DNA of 64,000 bases from an uncultured Clostridia bacterium (GTDB taxonomy: Bacteria; Bacillota; Clostridia; Christensenellales; Borkfalkiaceae). Shown piece by piece: positions 25,761 through 30,561 of the stretch. Position numbers and translations under genes: made by a program. Position 1 is the first letter of the stretch. Every line of letters starts with the position of its first letter. Where the stretch lies: NCBI GenBank assembly GCA_905235785.1, contig CAJOMP010000001.1:18977-82976 (forward strand). Reading direction: 5' to 3'. A model generated the notes under the pieces. That model saw only the letters and a program-made list of their open reading frames with translations. It was not told the origin of the DNA and did no database searches.

Positions 25761-26822
25761 TTACGTGTCTTTTCTGCCAGACAAATCGAGCGACATTGCA
25801 GCCTTTTTTCTGATATCTTCCGTAATTGCCGCATAATGTTTTTTGGTCGTTTCAACGTTTTTATGACCGAGACAGTCCGCCACAACGTATATATCTTTTG
25901 TTTGTCTGTATAAATTCGTGCCGAACGTACTTCTTAATTTGTGCGGTGTTATATGTTTCAGCGGCGATACGATTTTGGCGTATTTTTTTACGAGTTCCTG
26001 TACGGTTCTTGTTGAAATACGTTTATTTTGCAAAGAAATAAACATAGCGCGTTCTTCTTTTGGAATAGAAAGGTTATTGTTGCGTTCCGTTAAATAAGCA
26101 TTTAACGCGGCGGCAACTTCGTCGTTAAAATATAAAACAGCGCGATTGCCGCCTTTTCTCGTTACGACAAAACTGCTTGTGTTAAAATCAAAATCTTCGA
26201 CGTTAAGACCTACAAGTTCACTTATACGGATACCCGTGCCTAAAAATAGGGTAATTATAGCCGAATCTCTCAATCTTGTAACGTCGTGAAACGCTTTTTG
26301 ACGCTCCGAAAGCCCGCTTCCGCTATCGACAACATATAACATATCGCCGATTTCGTCGATTTTTTCATTTGTATCTAACCGTATAATCTCTTTTTCATGA
26401 ATTTTAGGCATTTCTACTTTTGCGGCAACGTTTGAATTGAGCATATTTTTATTAAAAAAATATTTGTAAAAACTGCGTAGGGTAGACAATTTGCGCGCTT
26501 TACCGCTTTCGGTACACCGTTCGTATTTACCGTTTATTTTATAATGACTCAAATAACTCATAAAAAGCTCTATATCGGATGCTGTCAATAAATCTATATC
26601 TTTTAATTCGATATCTGCAATATTTTTGTCTTTGAAAACTTTTGATGACAGAAAGTCGAAAAAGACCCTTAAATCGTACGCGTAGTTTAACCGCGTTAAC
26701 GGAGAAGTTCTCATTTCAACGCCGATAAAAAAATCCTGCGTAAAATACGGCATTTCGGATAAAAGGGCATTGGTTCTTTCGATACAGTTAATTTCTCTCT
26801 TTTCAAAATAGGATTTTTCCAT
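25761..26822 (-). CDS. Tyrosine recombinase, XerS/XerC-like (353 aa)
   Basis: RDSAIITLFLGTGIRISELVGLNVED, VTRKGGNRAVLYF, ITPHKLRSTFGTNLY, CLGHKNVETTKKHYA (RKHRHY-type catalytic set); length and N-terminal layout resemble XerS. Confidence 0.88.
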   Translation of the reverse strand: MEKSYFEKREINCIERTNALLSEMPYFTQDFFIGVEMRTSPLTRLNYAYDLRVFFDFLSSKVFKDKNIADIELKDIDLLTASDIELFMSYLSHYKINGKYERCTESGKARKLSTLRSFYKYFFNKNMLNSNVAAKVEMPKIHEKEIIRLDTNEKIDEIGDMLYVVDSGSGLSERQKAFHDVTRLRDSAIITLFLGTGIRISELVGLNVEDFDFNTSSFVVTRKGGNRAVLYFNDEVAAALNAYLTERNNNLSIPKEERAMFISLQNKRISTRTVQELVKKYAKIVSPLKHITPHKLRSTFGTNLYRQTKDIYVVADCLGHKNVETTKKHYAAITEDIRKKAAMSLDLSGRKDT

Positions 26823-26870: not shown

Positions 26871-26900
26871 TATCTATGCGTAAAATGAAACAACTTTTGC
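26871..26900. repeat. attL-like hybrid site: outer half-arm TATCTATGCGTAAAA + spacer TGAAAC
   Basis: Contains 15-bp direct repeat CTATGCGTAAAATGA (26874-26888), identical to 30342-30356; outer arm is the exact reverse complement of 30360-30374. Confidence 0.75.
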
Positions 26901-26932
26901 GCAGTGTATTAAGAACAATACATTGCGCAAAA
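26895..26932. repeat. Inverted repeat TTTTGCGCAGTGTATT-AAGAAC-AATACATTGCGCAAAA
   Basis: 16-bp arms with one mismatch and a 6-bp spacer, just inside the left end of the element. Confidence 0.7.
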
Positions 26933-27019
26933 AGGTCATTTTCCGCAAGATGTTTAAAATACTGTTATAATTTTAACATAAAAACAAGAACTTATCAAGT
27001 CAATTATGGTAAAGTTGTT

Positions 27020-27041
27020 TAGTTAACCGATTGCTTTTATT
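27020..27041. repeat. 22-bp inverted repeat, left copy (TAGTTAACCGATTGCTTTTATT)
   Basis: Exact reverse complement of 30323-30344; also part of local hairpin AACCGATTGC-TTTTATT-GCAATCGGTT (27025-27051). Confidence 0.85.
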
Positions 27042-27100
27042 GCAATCGGTTTTAATTTGAAAAAAAATAACTCCCGAGAAACGGGAAAGGAGAAAAGAAA

Positions 27101-27379
27101 ATGAAAGAACAAGACAAAAAGACAGTAGGCACGGCAACCGCCGAAGAACAGGAAGAGAAGGGTTTTACCGCGTATTTAGAGATTTACGGCGATTTTAAAA
27201 TGCTGGCAAAGGTATTTAGAGAGTTCGAAGGCGACCCCGATAAACTCGAACAAGATAAACTCGACGATATTGTTATTTACCTTGTAAACCTATCGGGCAT
27301 ACCCGAAACGGCAATTTCTCACAGTATATTAAAAATCGTATCCGACGACGAAGACGAAGAAGAAACGGACGAAGAATAA
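27101..27379 (+). CDS. Small acidic hypothetical protein (92 aa), element-encoded
   Basis: AAAGGAG RBS; stop overlaps the next start (TAATG); acidic C-terminus DDEDEEETDEE. Confidence 0.7.
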   Translation: MKEQDKKTVGTATAEEQEEKGFTAYLEIYGDFKMLAKVFREFEGDPDKLEQDKLDDIVIYLVNLSGIPETAISHSILKIVSDDEDEEETDEE

Positions 27380-28038
27380 TGCAAGCCATTTTACCCACCC
27401 CCGCCGAAGCGGACAAAATAAAACACGGCGACAAAAATTTAATTGACGATTTTTACTTACAAAATTACGAGTTAATTTCGCAAGTCGCAAAATCTTATTT
27501 TCGTAATCGTCAAATAGATAAATGCTATTCGGAAGATGCAATCAACGAAGTATATTTATATTTCGGCAAATTAAAATTTGCAAGCAATTCGGCATTTGTA
27601 CGCAGTATAAAAGACGTGTGCGTTTACGTTCGTTTTGGCGGGGAAAGGTCTTTCCATCAATTCAGACAAGGCGACACGGAAATTTTGACTATTTTGGACG
27701 AACCCGCAATAAGAGAACACAATCACGGCGGAGAAGTCGAAACAATCGGCGATTTAATCGAAGCTCCGTTTGATATTCTTGAACAGGTTGAGCCGAAAAA
27801 GACATATACGGACGAGATATACAAAATAGCGCGTTCGTATATGTCGCCAAGACAGAAAGAAGCGTTTAAGTATTTTTATTATACCGATTTAACTGCGCGA
27901 GAAATCGGCGCAAAAATGGGCGTGAATATAAACGGAGCGCAAAGCCTTAAAAATGGGTATATACGCAAATTAAAAAGCGTTGCGGAAGAATTCCGCAACA
28001 AAATAGTAAAACTCGGCTACTATGCCGAAGCAAATTAA
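27379..28038 (+). CDS. RNA polymerase sigma factor-like protein (219 aa), element-encoded
   Basis: Region 2-like YELISQVAKSYFRNRQIDKCYSEDAINEVYLYF and region 4 HTH-like MSPRQKEAFKYFYYTDLTAREIGAKMGVNINGAQSLKNGYIRKLK. Confidence 0.65.
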   Translation: MQAILPTPAEADKIKHGDKNLIDDFYLQNYELISQVAKSYFRNRQIDKCYSEDAINEVYLYFGKLKFASNSAFVRSIKDVCVYVRFGGERSFHQFRQGDTEILTILDEPAIREHNHGGEVETIGDLIEAPFDILEQVEPKKTYTDEIYKIARSYMSPRQKEAFKYFYYTDLTAREIGAKMGVNINGAQSLKNGYIRKLKSVAEEFRNKIVKLGYYAEAN

Positions 28039-28053
28039 AAGGAGCGAATTAAA

Positions 28054-28224
28054 ATGAAAACCGAATTAACTATTTCAAAGAAAACGTTTGTAAACGAAGC
28101 GAAAGAAGAAATCGAATACAACTCTTTTGAGTTTACCATTGACGGTAAAACTTTTTCTTTATTTCCCCGAAAGGAAGATAAGAAACTTATAAATTATATT
28201 TTAGAAAATTTAAGTCATAATTAA
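28054..28224 (+). CDS. Small hypothetical protein (56 aa), element-encoded
   Basis: ATG after AAAAGGAG RBS; MKTELTISKKTFVNEAKEEIEYNSFEFTIDGKTFSLFPRKEDKKLINYILENLSHN; not in the supplied ORF track (below length cutoff). Confidence 0.55.
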   Translation: MKTELTISKKTFVNEAKEEIEYNSFEFTIDGKTFSLFPRKEDKKLINYILENLSHN

Positions 28225-28237
28225 TTTCCTTTATGAT

Positions 28238-28300
28238 AGCGCATTCGAGCGGGGCGAAAGCCCCGCAAGAGTGCGCTCTTGATATATATAGAAATAACTC
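28238..28300 (+). other. Candidate double-strand origin (dso) of rolling-circle replication
   Basis: Stem-loop AGCGCATTC-GA-GCGGGGC-GAAA-GCCCCGC-AA-GAGTGCGCT followed by TCTTGATATATATAGAAATAAC; TCTTGATA matches the pC194/pUB110-family nick site; 20-40 bp upstream of rep. Confidence 0.7.
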
Positions 28301-28321
28301 TACACAAAAAGGACGGGTAAA

Positions 28322-29416
28322 ATGGATATAGACAGCGCAAAGATAAATAAATCTAAAATTAAAAAGTCGGCGCATAAAATACAAGGCAATGATCTTATAG
28401 CGGAATACTATAACCAACTTTACGAAGAAACGGGTTTTGCGGAAAAAAGGGCGGAAGCCGTTAAAGGTTGTTTAAAGTGGTGGGATATAGATTATTATCG
28501 GTTGCAAAAGGTCAAAGACATTTTGCGGGTTAACCTTTGTCGAGATAAGTTCTGCCCGAACTGTCAAAATCTTATATCGAAAAGGCGCTATTTAAAATAC
28601 AAGCCCGAACTTGATAAACTGTTAAACGAGTTTTCGCTCTGGCACGTTGTTTTTACCGTTCCGAACTGTACGGCGATTTCTTTAATAGGAACGATAAAAA
28701 CAATGTACGCAAAATTCGTTTATGTAGTGCAATATCTACAAGGCAAGCGAAAGGTTAAGGGCTTGGACTTTATGCGTTATAATTTTAAAGGCGCTATCCG
28801 TTCATTAGAGATTACCATTAAAGCCAAAAACAAAAACGAATATGAGTTTCACCCGCATTTTCATTGTATTTTCGTTTTGAAGAAAGGATTTCGAGAAGAG
28901 AGAAAATATATAAACGATTATTCGTTTGACGGACGAAAGAAAAGCAGATATTTTACCGATTTTGAAATATTATTGCAAAAGTCCTGGTATTTGTTTTATA
29001 ACGGCGAAAAGTTGACGAAGCAACGCTTTGATGACTTGGAGCAGGGTTATTCGGTGATTGCCGATAGAGTTAACGGAAATTATAAAGAAATCTTTAAATA
29101 CGCTGTAAAAGGCTTATACGACCCGCGAACGGGGTCTTTTGAATATCCGTATGAAGTATTTAAAGCGTTATATCCTGTTTTACATAGACGAAAGGTAATA
29201 CAAGGCTACGGCATTTTAAACAAATTTAAGTTCGACGAAAGCGACGAAGAAGAGTTCGACGGACTTTACACCGAAATTATTACAGAATTAAAAAAGATTG
29301 AGGAACCTTTTTTTCAGGCAATCAGGCTACAAGATTTATTAAAAGAATTTGACGAACGCGAAGAAATACAGTACATAAGCAGAAATTCTTTGCATAAAAA
29401 TATGCTTGAAAATTGA
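28322..29416 (+). CDS. rep: Rolling-circle replication initiator, Rep_1 (pUB110/pC194) family
   Basis: Cys motif CRDKFCPNC, HUH motif FHPHFHCIFVLKKGF, catalytic-Tyr region EIFKYAVKGLYD. Confidence 0.85.
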   Translation: MDIDSAKINKSKIKKSAHKIQGNDLIAEYYNQLYEETGFAEKRAEAVKGCLKWWDIDYYRLQKVKDILRVNLCRDKFCPNCQNLISKRRYLKYKPELDKLLNEFSLWHVVFTVPNCTAISLIGTIKTMYAKFVYVVQYLQGKRKVKGLDFMRYNFKGAIRSLEITIKAKNKNEYEFHPHFHCIFVLKKGFREERKYINDYSFDGRKKSRYFTDFEILLQKSWYLFYNGEKLTKQRFDDLEQGYSVIADRVNGNYKEIFKYAVKGLYDPRTGSFEYPYEVFKALYPVLHRRKVIQGYGILNKFKFDESDEEEFDGLYTEIITELKKIEEPFFQAIRLQDLLKEFDEREEIQYISRNSLHKNMLEN

Positions 29417-29432
29417 TAAAGGAAGTGTTATA

Positions 29433-29771
29433 ATGAAAAAGAAAACAAAAGATATTTATTATCACGGAAAAGGCACGGGCTGGCAAAAGAAAAGCAGAGA
29501 TAACAATCCTGTAAAAGGCTACCCGAATTCGAATATAGATTTTTACGATAAAAATACAGGTAAATTACATAGACGGCGTAAAATAGGGCAAAGCGGAAGT
29601 GCTGCAATAGATTACGACGTTGCAGATGCCTATCACGATAAAGACCATTCGCATAAATGGTTTGGTTTCGGGAAAGATTTAAAAAGAGAATACAAAGGGC
29701 AACCGTTGAATAAAAAACAGCAAAAAGAATTTAATAAAGCGAAGAAAAAGAGAAAAGGTATAAAAAAATGA
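29433..29771 (+). CDS. Small basic His/Asp-rich protein (112 aa) resembling polymorphic-toxin C-terminal domains
   Basis: YYHGKGTGWQKKSRDNNPVKGYPNSNIDFYDKNTGKLHRRRKIGQSGSAAIDYDVADAYHDKDHSHKW; AAGGAAG RBS upstream of ATG 29433; overlaps the next ORF by 4 bp. Confidence 0.55.
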   Translation: MKKKTKDIYYHGKGTGWQKKSRDNNPVKGYPNSNIDFYDKNTGKLHRRRKIGQSGSAAIDYDVADAYHDKDHSHKWFGFGKDLKREYKGQPLNKKQQKEFNKAKKKRKGIKK

Positions 29772-30052
29772 AAGACGATTTTAATCCCGTAGATTATTTT
29801 GATAGTGCAATAGAATCGGGTGATTTTATTGAATTTTCATATAAAAATGTTATTTATGTTATAAGCCCGCTTTATAAAGAAGAAAATGATTATAAATTTT
29901 CTGGTTTTTCTGTGGGGAAATATGACAGTGATAATAATAGGGCAGAAGATAAAGAATTTTGTAGTATTGACGATTTAAAACAAAATTGTTATATTGACGG
30001 TGTAAATATAATCGATGCTATCTCCAACGCCGATTATATTTGTGAAAATTAG
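29768..30052 (+). CDS. Small acidic hypothetical protein (94 aa), immunity/antitoxin-like by position
   Basis: ATGA overlap with upstream ORF; acidic composition; translationally coupled. Confidence 0.5.
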   Translation: MKDDFNPVDYFDSAIESGDFIEFSYKNVIYVISPLYKEENDYKFSGFSVGKYDSDNNRAEDKEFCSIDDLKQNCYIDGVNIIDAISNADYICEN

Positions 30053-30059
30053 TTTTTTG

Positions 30060-30082
30060 ATACTTTTTTTCAAAAAAAGTAT
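30060..30082. repeat. Perfect 11-bp inverted repeat ATACTTTTTTT-C-AAAAAAAGTAT
   Basis: Directly read; follows the stop of the 94-aa ORF. Confidence 0.7.
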
Positions 30083-30118
30083 AATAGCCCTTATCACCCA
30101 GATAGGAGCGGGAACGAA

Positions 30119-30319
30119 ATGAAAAAAGAGAATAAAAGTAAAAGCGGGAAGAACACTCTTTCCGCTTTATTAGCCCGCTTTAACGAGTATAAAGAAAAAC
30201 AAAAAGAAAAGACGACGCGTAAGAGCGGTTTAGCGCCGGCGCGTCGTCTTTTTTGTTTTCGAATTGTAGGGAAAATAAAAAAATTTTGTAATTTACTTGC
30301 TTTTTCCTTCAATAGGTGA
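30119..30319 (+). CDS. Small basic hypothetical protein (66 aa), uncertain
   Basis: AGGAG 10 nt upstream of ATG; contains the hairpin 30207-30252, so coding status is doubtful. Confidence 0.3.
   Translation: MKKENKSKSGKNTLSALLARFNEYKEKQKEKTTRKSGLAPARRLFCFRIVGKIKKFCNLLAFSFNR
30207..30252 (+). other. Large hairpin: candidate single-strand origin or terminator
   Basis: Perfect 13-bp arms AAAAGACGACGCG / CGCGTCGTCTTTT, 20-nt loop containing TAGCGC (similar to ssoA CS-6 TAGCG(T/A)); T-run follows. Confidence 0.5.
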
Positions 30320-30322
30320 TAA

Positions 30323-30344
30323 AATAAAAGCAATCGGTTAACTA
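30323..30344. repeat. 22-bp inverted repeat, right copy (AATAAAAGCAATCGGTTAACTA)
   Basis: Exact reverse complement of 27020-27041. Confidence 0.85.
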
Positions 30345-30375
30345 TGCGTAAAATGACGGTTTTACGCATAGATAA
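30338..30375. repeat. attR-like dif-type site (inverted arms, 6-bp spacer)
   Basis: CTATGCGTAAAA-TGACGG-TTTTACGCATAG perfect 12-bp arms (30342-30353 / 30360-30371), extending to 15/16 matches outward. Confidence 0.75.
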
Positions 30376-30561
30376 CTTATATTTTTAATTATAAAGGGTA
30401 AAATCAACGCTGTCAACCGAATTTTAAAAATAAATTGATTTTGTTATATAAATTTTAGTTTTTTCGCTATAATTTATGTCAGTCAAGTACGCTTAAAAAA
30501 ATCAATTGACTAATTCGCTATATTATTGTATAATATATTAAAAATTTATAGGAGTTTGTCT

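Follow-up and report, generated by a model that had tools for sequence, protein, structure and literature searches.

A Rep_1 rolling-circle element inserted in the chromosomal dif site of a Clostridia bacterium, with a predicted folded attachment site resembling that of CTXphi

The 64,000-nucleotide stretch analyzed here (the window; contig CAJOMP010000001.1 of assembly GCA_905235785.1, positions 18,977 to 82,976) comes from an uncultured Clostridia bacterium of the family Borkfalkiaceae and carries, next to a gene for a XerS-like tyrosine recombinase, a small element with a Rep_1-type replication initiator, bounded by two short repeats. The 15-mer CTATGCGTAAAATGA occurs at 26874-26888 and again at 30342-30356, and the arms TATCTATGCGTAAAA (26871-26885) and TTTTACGCATAGATA (30360-30374) are 100% complementary over 15 bp, just as the original prediction made from this DNA had described them. 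The 14-mer TATGCGTAAAATGA has exactly these two copies in the window, and the core repeat starts at 26875 and 30343, so that the copy-to-copy distance gives an element length of 3,468 bp. The right-hand copy (attR; 30343-30370, forward strand) is an intact dif site of 28 bp, TATGCGTAAAA TGACGG TTTTACGCATA, an 11-6-11 palindrome with 22 of 22 arm positions, and the best other dif-like score anywhere in the 64 kb is at most 16/22. The left-hand copy (attL) is a half-site: the chromosomal left arm TATGCGTAAAA (26875-26885, forward strand) and the bases TGA are kept, after which the sequence diverges (TGAAAC AACTTTTGCGC). Excision had been predicted to restore a palindrome around either TGACGG or TGAAAC; the palindrome is real, but the right copy is already complete, and TGACGG is the chromosomal spacer while TGAAAC derives from the element. 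The spacer of close relatives is TGACTG, and that of locus L052, whose XerS is 89% identical, is exactly TGACGG.

Both the GC skew and the main gene direction switch from plus to minus at ~30-32 kb, where the palindrome sits. Alignment of the same locus in relatives, proposed earlier as a check, bore out the expectation of an empty site: of 21 further congener loci that were read (L002-L022), 20 have an uninterrupted palindrome upstream of xerS, and in the remaining one (L013) it is interrupted, i.e., itself occupied. The congeners follow the pattern TATGCGYAAAA-N6-TTTTRCGCATA, some with one or two variant bases, and their dif-to-xerS distance is mostly 50 to 220 bp (~650 bp in L017); in the window, ~60 bp separate the left arm at attL from the start of xerS, a spacing also seen in empty relatives. 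Five close relatives (G023, G003, G025, G499, and G011, the last with a partial mrp) retain the order mrp-xerS-dif-padR, with rsuA and dacF coming next where the contig extends that far, and the right flank of the window is, by eye, similar to that of the empty locus L004. A chance repeat is excluded by the uninterrupted palindrome that close relatives carry at the same place. Because the palindrome lies at the skew flip and beside xerS and is empty in relatives, we identify the target as the chromosomal dif, and insertion of the element in that site is nearly certain.

The recombinase gene (25761-26822, reverse strand; 353 amino acids [aa]) has XerS (NF003462) as its best NCBIfam model, with a score of 213.6 bits that falls below the equivalog cutoff of 267, and it is therefore labeled XerS-like. 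In most good genomes of the genus, no XerD-like recombinase other than this one was found, and the XerD cutoff was not reached by any. The earlier proposal that host Xer acts at dif is right about the chromosomal Xer site; the enzyme is a single XerS-like protein encoded beside dif, not XerC/XerD. Since the gene adjoins the left end, it might itself be part of the element, which would then be an ordinary integrase-bearing one, yet this is extremely improbable: the gene lies outside the att repeats, its best model is XerS, and it still adjoins dif in congeners free of the insertion, which also excludes it as element cargo. A recombinase enclosed by the element, which would have refuted the original prediction, is contradicted by the conservation of xerS with dif in relatives with an empty site, and the gene is a host property. 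The linkage is not universal, because in some members of one genus (L085 = G475 and L087 = G496) another gene lies directly upstream of xerS and dif is on a different contig.

A sigma-70-like promoter (30388-30416, reverse strand; TTGACA-17-TATAAT, 12/12 consensus positions) points through dif toward xerS. A 12/12 promoter is likewise placed beyond dif in at least seven congeners, and others have theirs between dif and xerS instead. In the window, 3.5 kb of inserted DNA now separate this promoter from xerS, and a candidate element-borne promoter toward the gene (26970-26998, reverse strand; TTGATA-17-TAAAAT with an extended -10) is recognized by its consensus match only (10/12). Since dif, in the clade of the window, is flanked by xerS and the promoter predicted for it, the insertion should alter expression of the chromosome-dimer resolvase. 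Near the xerS start of four other loci (L096, L098, L101, and L122), a dif-like half-site (TCTTCGTAAAA or TATGCGTAAAA followed by TTGACA-like bases) overlaps the -35 box, possibly reflecting self-regulation by XerS.

All main open reading frames (ORFs) of the element run rightward and are open. The largest encodes a 364-aa HUH initiator (28322-29416, forward strand) that scores 58.5 bits against Pfam PF01446 (cutoff, 33.2), in agreement with the predicted Rep_1 type; its HPHFH and YxxK motifs are invariant among six relatives, and its identity to the Reps of small plasmids from Clostridium and Bacillus is 37 to 40%. An IS91-like transposase is excluded (26.6 bits against an NCBIfam cutoff of 125, with Rep_1 passing its own). 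Upstream of rep, the block at 28249-28309 (forward strand) is the best-conserved non-coding DNA of the element, with 84 to 89% DNA identity to L125, L073, L122, and L039. It contains TCTTGATA (28277-28284) after a GC-rich stem, and TCTTGATATAT is also found upstream of rep in the Clostridium aceticum plasmid CACET_5p. Judging from the origins of pC194 and pUB110, we take the TCTTGATA block to be the nick region of the double-strand origin (dso), the assignment of the block as a dso following its sequence conservation.

The remaining forward-strand ORFs encode a 92-aa acidic protein (27101-27379) with no meaningful family match; a 219-aa sigma-70-like regulator (27379-28038; TIGR02937, E value of 8e-8, below the cutoff), whose structure predicted alone was set aside (mean pLDDT, 51.8); a 56-aa protein (28054-28224) common to other Rep_1 elements, some of them with Zot (60% identity in L073, relatives in L126 and L130); a 112-aa basic protein (29433-29771) without family matches; and a 94-aa protein (29768-30052) weakly matching phrog_3711 (unknown function; E value of 4e-4). 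A 66-aa ORF (30119-30319) overlaps a strong stem-loop (30201-30258) and may not be a gene. Family profile scans found no integrase, transposase, coat, or Zot gene among the element proteins, and we are confident that the element lacks an integrase of its own. An Rfam scan of the element gave no match near the gathering score, and viral contigs gave no match when searched directly with Rep and distant relatives only when searched with the Rep alignment. The location in dif and the lack of an own integrase or transposase are those of an integrative mobile element exploiting Xer (IMEX), and the HUH and Tyr motifs of Rep_1 with a dso near rep are those of Rep_1 rolling-circle plasmids, while nothing matches the Zot/pI ATPase and coat genes that define Inoviridae. 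With dif at the skew flip and Rep_1 plus dso inside, the prediction that a pUB110/pC194-type replicon has integrated at a chromosomal Xer site in a Clostridia host holds up. Its Rep_1 lineage is common to inovirus-like elements, so that this rolling-circle replicon need not be a plasmid and may be a satellite.

The most informative part of the element, absent from the original prediction, is a folded attachment site formed by its two ends. The circle junction was modeled by placing 30323-30342, at the right end, directly before 26875-27041, at the left end, and folding the product as single-stranded DNA (ssDNA). The joined ends form a 187-nucleotide forked hairpin with a minimum free energy (MFE) of -44.9 kcal/mol (z-score, -9.8), against -16.3 (standard deviation, 2.9) for shuffled controls, 0 of 200 of which folded as well. 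Its outer 22-bp stem joins the two ends of the element, the 5' arm at the right end (30323-30344, forward strand) being 100% complementary to the 3' arm (27020-27041, forward strand). Within it, the inner hairpin (26877-26947, forward strand) pairs TGCGTAAAATGA (26877-26888) with TCATTTTCCGCA (26936-26947) and, around the internal loop AACAAC/AGG, TTTTGCGCAGTGTATT with AATACATTGCGCAAAA (26895-26910 with 26917-26932), giving a dif-like duplex built from two inverted half-copies. The element-derived remainder of the first site, attP1 (26886-26903, forward strand), consists of the centre TGAAACAAC, over-long at 9 nucleotides compared with 6 in dif, and a degenerate right arm, TTTTGCGCA; it shares only TGA with the dif spacer TGACGG (AAC versus CGG), so the homology lies beside one arm only. 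The second, inverted site, attP2 (CTTGCGGAAAA TGACCT TTTTGCGCAAT; 26922-26949, reverse strand), has 16/22 arm matches, and since sites scoring like it are expected ~0.005 times per 150 nucleotides in these genomes, a chance occurrence is improbable. A terminator-like stem-loop (27025-27055) just inside the left end uses the same arm as the outer hairpin, and transcription there could compete with folding.

These perfect 22-bp arms also bear on the age of the insertion. If it were old and the element a decayed, now immobile remnant, the doubtful 66-aa ORF and the incomplete attL would be explained; the main ORFs are open, however, the Rep motifs and dso are intact, and the element is absent from the sampled congeners, so we regard decay as rather improbable.

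The dif site is a hotspot for elements in this family. In a sample of 301 genomes, 223 have xerS and 132 have a site fitting the dif pattern of the genus with at most two mismatches; other genera use other dif sequences, and the seven occupied sites found, that of the window included, are not an exhaustive count. Inovirus-like elements, so called for their Zot-like and small membrane proteins by gene resemblance and without a curated inovirus model, occupy dif in four genera. They include elements in G016, a congener of the window organism (Rep_OBD with coat-like and Zot-like genes), G217 (7,598 bp, Zot-like), G465 (4,294 bp, Zot-like), and G471 (6,960 bp, with a Walker-motif Zot-like gene and Rep_1), and at the G577 dif (L122) two tandem elements with Zot-like genes, the second with Rep_1, have left no intact dif; the two elements lie between xerS and the right flank, with degenerate dif-like sequences between them. 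The G626 dif element has a Rep_1 46% identical to that of the window, and two G626 contigs are identical over 111 bp and diverge at the spacer end, one continuing into the element and the other into an intact dif. With both an occupied and an empty allele present in this assembly, two strains or excision would account for the pattern. The orientation is constant: the shared left arm is on the xerS side in all five sites with both junctions and in the attL of G626, and the intact dif is on the side away from xerS in the same five of five.

Several further loci were set aside or noted on their own. G475 and G496 were not counted as contig-split occupied sites, since another gene lies directly upstream of xerS; G581 was excluded for a contig break beside an intact dif; and G409, whose contig ends near both, stands outside the seven. 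In G438 (L104 and L105, contigs C9 and C16), two dif-like sites have the same left flank, and the repeated post-dif sequence recurs at a contig end ~0.8 kb off, perhaps a tandem array at dif. Two viral contigs (L140:3099-3126 and L141:1278-1305) carry a perfect XerS-type dif palindrome near large tailed-phage-looking ORFs for which searches gave no identity. An inovirus-like region of G023 (L041:6841-11379) has Rep_1 beside large secreted-looking proteins and a ribosomal protein operon, and the dif of that genome is empty.

In the attP(+) of the Vibrio phage CTXphi, an attP1 with a 12-bp centre and an inverted attP2 with a centre of 5 to 7 lie in a forked hairpin of ~150 nucleotides, compatibility is set by the bases beside the XerC arm, and one functional dif is left (PMC3089051, PMC4246890). 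By computation, the joined ends in the window have this anatomy, i.e., two inverted dif-like sites that pair, an over-long attP1 centre, and one-sided spacer homology. Like CTXphi and its satellite RS1 (Vibrio cholerae, XerC/XerD), the element has no integrase and would use host Xer, its two defective, inverted sites lie in a forked hairpin of similar size, homology is confined to bases beside one arm, and one functional dif is restored. It differs from them in its Clostridia host with a single XerS-like recombinase, in its centres (9 nucleotides in attP1 against 12 in CTXphi, and 6 in attP2), in the much shorter separation of the sites, in the lack of phage genes, and in having Rep_1 instead of RstA.

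Because the joined ends are built like CTXphi attP(+), the best explanation is that XerS integrated the element as folded ssDNA, which in our judgment is probable; the folded ssDNA substrate taken singly is about as probable, and XerS as the integrating enzyme is very likely. The sequence itself shows the insertion and its target, the lack of an integrase, Rep and its dso, half-sites that complement each other, and a spacer match on one side only; the ssDNA substrate, the enzyme, a single-strand exchange, and the stability of the insertion are inferred. The element would be an IMEX replicating as a rolling circle by its own Rep_1 and dso, with its plus strand present as single-stranded circles during replication. 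In the forked hairpin, the defective attP1 and attP2 would pair to give a duplex that resembles dif but is bulged in the middle, and host XerS, encoded next door at the terminus, would recombine it with the chromosomal dif through one pair of strand exchanges at the left-arm edge, where TGA matches; replication would afterwards resolve the junction. The padR side would keep an intact dif, allowing dimer resolution to go on, and the attL left on the xerS side would be non-functional, from which a stable element is expected. The constant orientation of the occupied sites speaks for this route, as does the contrast between Rep_1 relatives in tRNA genes, which have an integrase beside rep, and the complete dif-borne ones, which have none.

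Some observations weigh against this route. The minus strand of the joined ends folds equally well, and the strand used is consequently assigned from the direction of Rep. The literature searched contains no report of XerS acting on folded ssDNA. Among the other occupied sites, the unrelated inovirus-like G465 speaks partly for the route, as its two sites also fold together (MFE, -33.4; z-score, -5.4), but its spacer matches dif in only one base, and G217, G471, and G016 have no clear comparable two-site hairpin. The spacers of G217 and G016 match dif at 6/6 bases, and this full match without a hairpin makes a double-stranded DNA (dsDNA) route probable in the same niche. XerS might likewise have integrated the window element as ordinary dsDNA, in the manner of VGJphi or GGI, with the hairpin being a single-strand origin (sso) or its leftover. 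Rolling-circle plasmids require an sso, which is frequently a hairpin. The 22-bp att of the Legionella element LME-1, moreover, matches dif (PMC9765430). In duplex form, however, attP1 would have either a centre of 9 bp or a weakly matching right arm (AACTTTTGCGC), with only 3/6 spacer bases in common, the hairpin specifically holds a second inverted dif-like site, and the integrase-bearing sister element in G212 has no significant sequence match to the hairpin region; dsDNA integration of the window element is therefore rated unlikely.

The Rep_1 relatives illustrate two ways of entering a chromosome. In G212, G449, G644, G488, and G413, an integrase gene adjoins rep and a tRNA gene lies beside, and an integrase is lacking in the complete Rep_1 elements at dif (those of the window and G471 and the Rep_1-bearing one of G577). 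The Rep tree groups the window Rep with that of G212 (98/98) and the G577 Rep with that of G644 (100/99). The integrase and dif labels need at least three changes on this tree, and as shuffled labels need about as many, the tree shows mixing and not clustering. The sigma-like proteins of G212 and the window are 58% identical and the 56-aa proteins 60% identical. The simplest reading is that close replicons exchanged an integrase for a dif mimic, or the reverse. Like pUB110/pC194-type rolling-circle plasmids, the window element has a Rep_1 with HUH and Tyr motifs and a dso of the TCTTGATA type upstream of rep, and unlike them it is integrated in the chromosome at dif. Its Rep is homologous to those of the clostridial inovirus-like elements CACET_5p, G471, and G577, the latter two in the same dif niche, whereas these carry the Zot-like and coat-like genes that it lacks. 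The element may be a satellite of inoviruses using the same dif (compare RS1 and TLC in Vibrio), and a filamentous phage in the same cell would then package its ssDNA; this lifestyle is compatible with XerS integrating folded ssDNA. Rep_1 is common to the dif-borne inovirus-like G471 and G577 and the Zot-bearing C. aceticum plasmid, the element has neither a coat nor a Zot gene, and a congener (G016) holds an inovirus-like element in its dif; a packaging signal and helper were not identified, though, and the sister G212 has no detectable Zot and resembles an integrative plasmid, which leaves the satellite lifestyle a possible but somewhat doubtful one.

The earlier view that this combination is not a described class was too strong, since IMEX and dif-integrated inoviruses are well known and LME-1 is a single-recombinase IMEX (PMC9765430). 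LME-1 exploits the XerL system of Legionella through a 22-bp att matching dif and, like the window element, belongs to a single-recombinase dif system and leaves one intact and one modified dif (PMC9765430); it differs in being phage-like and gammaproteobacterial, with no hairpin attP reported and with xerL far from dif. The XerS/difSL system of streptococci and lactococci resembles the host system in its single ~355-aa recombinase with dif immediately adjacent (PMC5357621), but difSL is 31 bp with an 11-bp centre, compared with the nearly perfect 11-6-11 palindrome here, and the recombinase of the window scores under the XerS equivalog cutoff. No element exploiting that system is reported in the papers found. 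More broadly, neither an element exploiting XerS/dif nor a CTXphi-type folded attP outside filamentous phages was found in the literature searched, a limited negative in both cases because most subscription journals lay outside the search.

We tentatively suggest, at somewhat less than even confidence, that in Clostridia having just one XerS-like recombinase, a rolling-circle element that is nonviral or a satellite uses a CTXphi-like folded-ssDNA mimic of dif that arose independently of the Vibrio phages, that Rep_1 elements repeatedly switch between their own integrase and host XerS, and that insertion in the xerS leader puts the dimer-resolution gene under element control. How Xer integrates folded ssDNA is established for CTXphi and a small number of its relatives, all of which depend on two recombinases. 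With a natural substrate for one XerS-like enzyme, it could be tested whether a single protein does both jobs, and also whether rolling-circle replicons generally can settle in chromosomes by way of folded ssDNA. The family provides a natural series for this purpose, in which the same Rep lineage occurs with an integrase at tRNA genes and without an integrase at dif, with or without phage genes.

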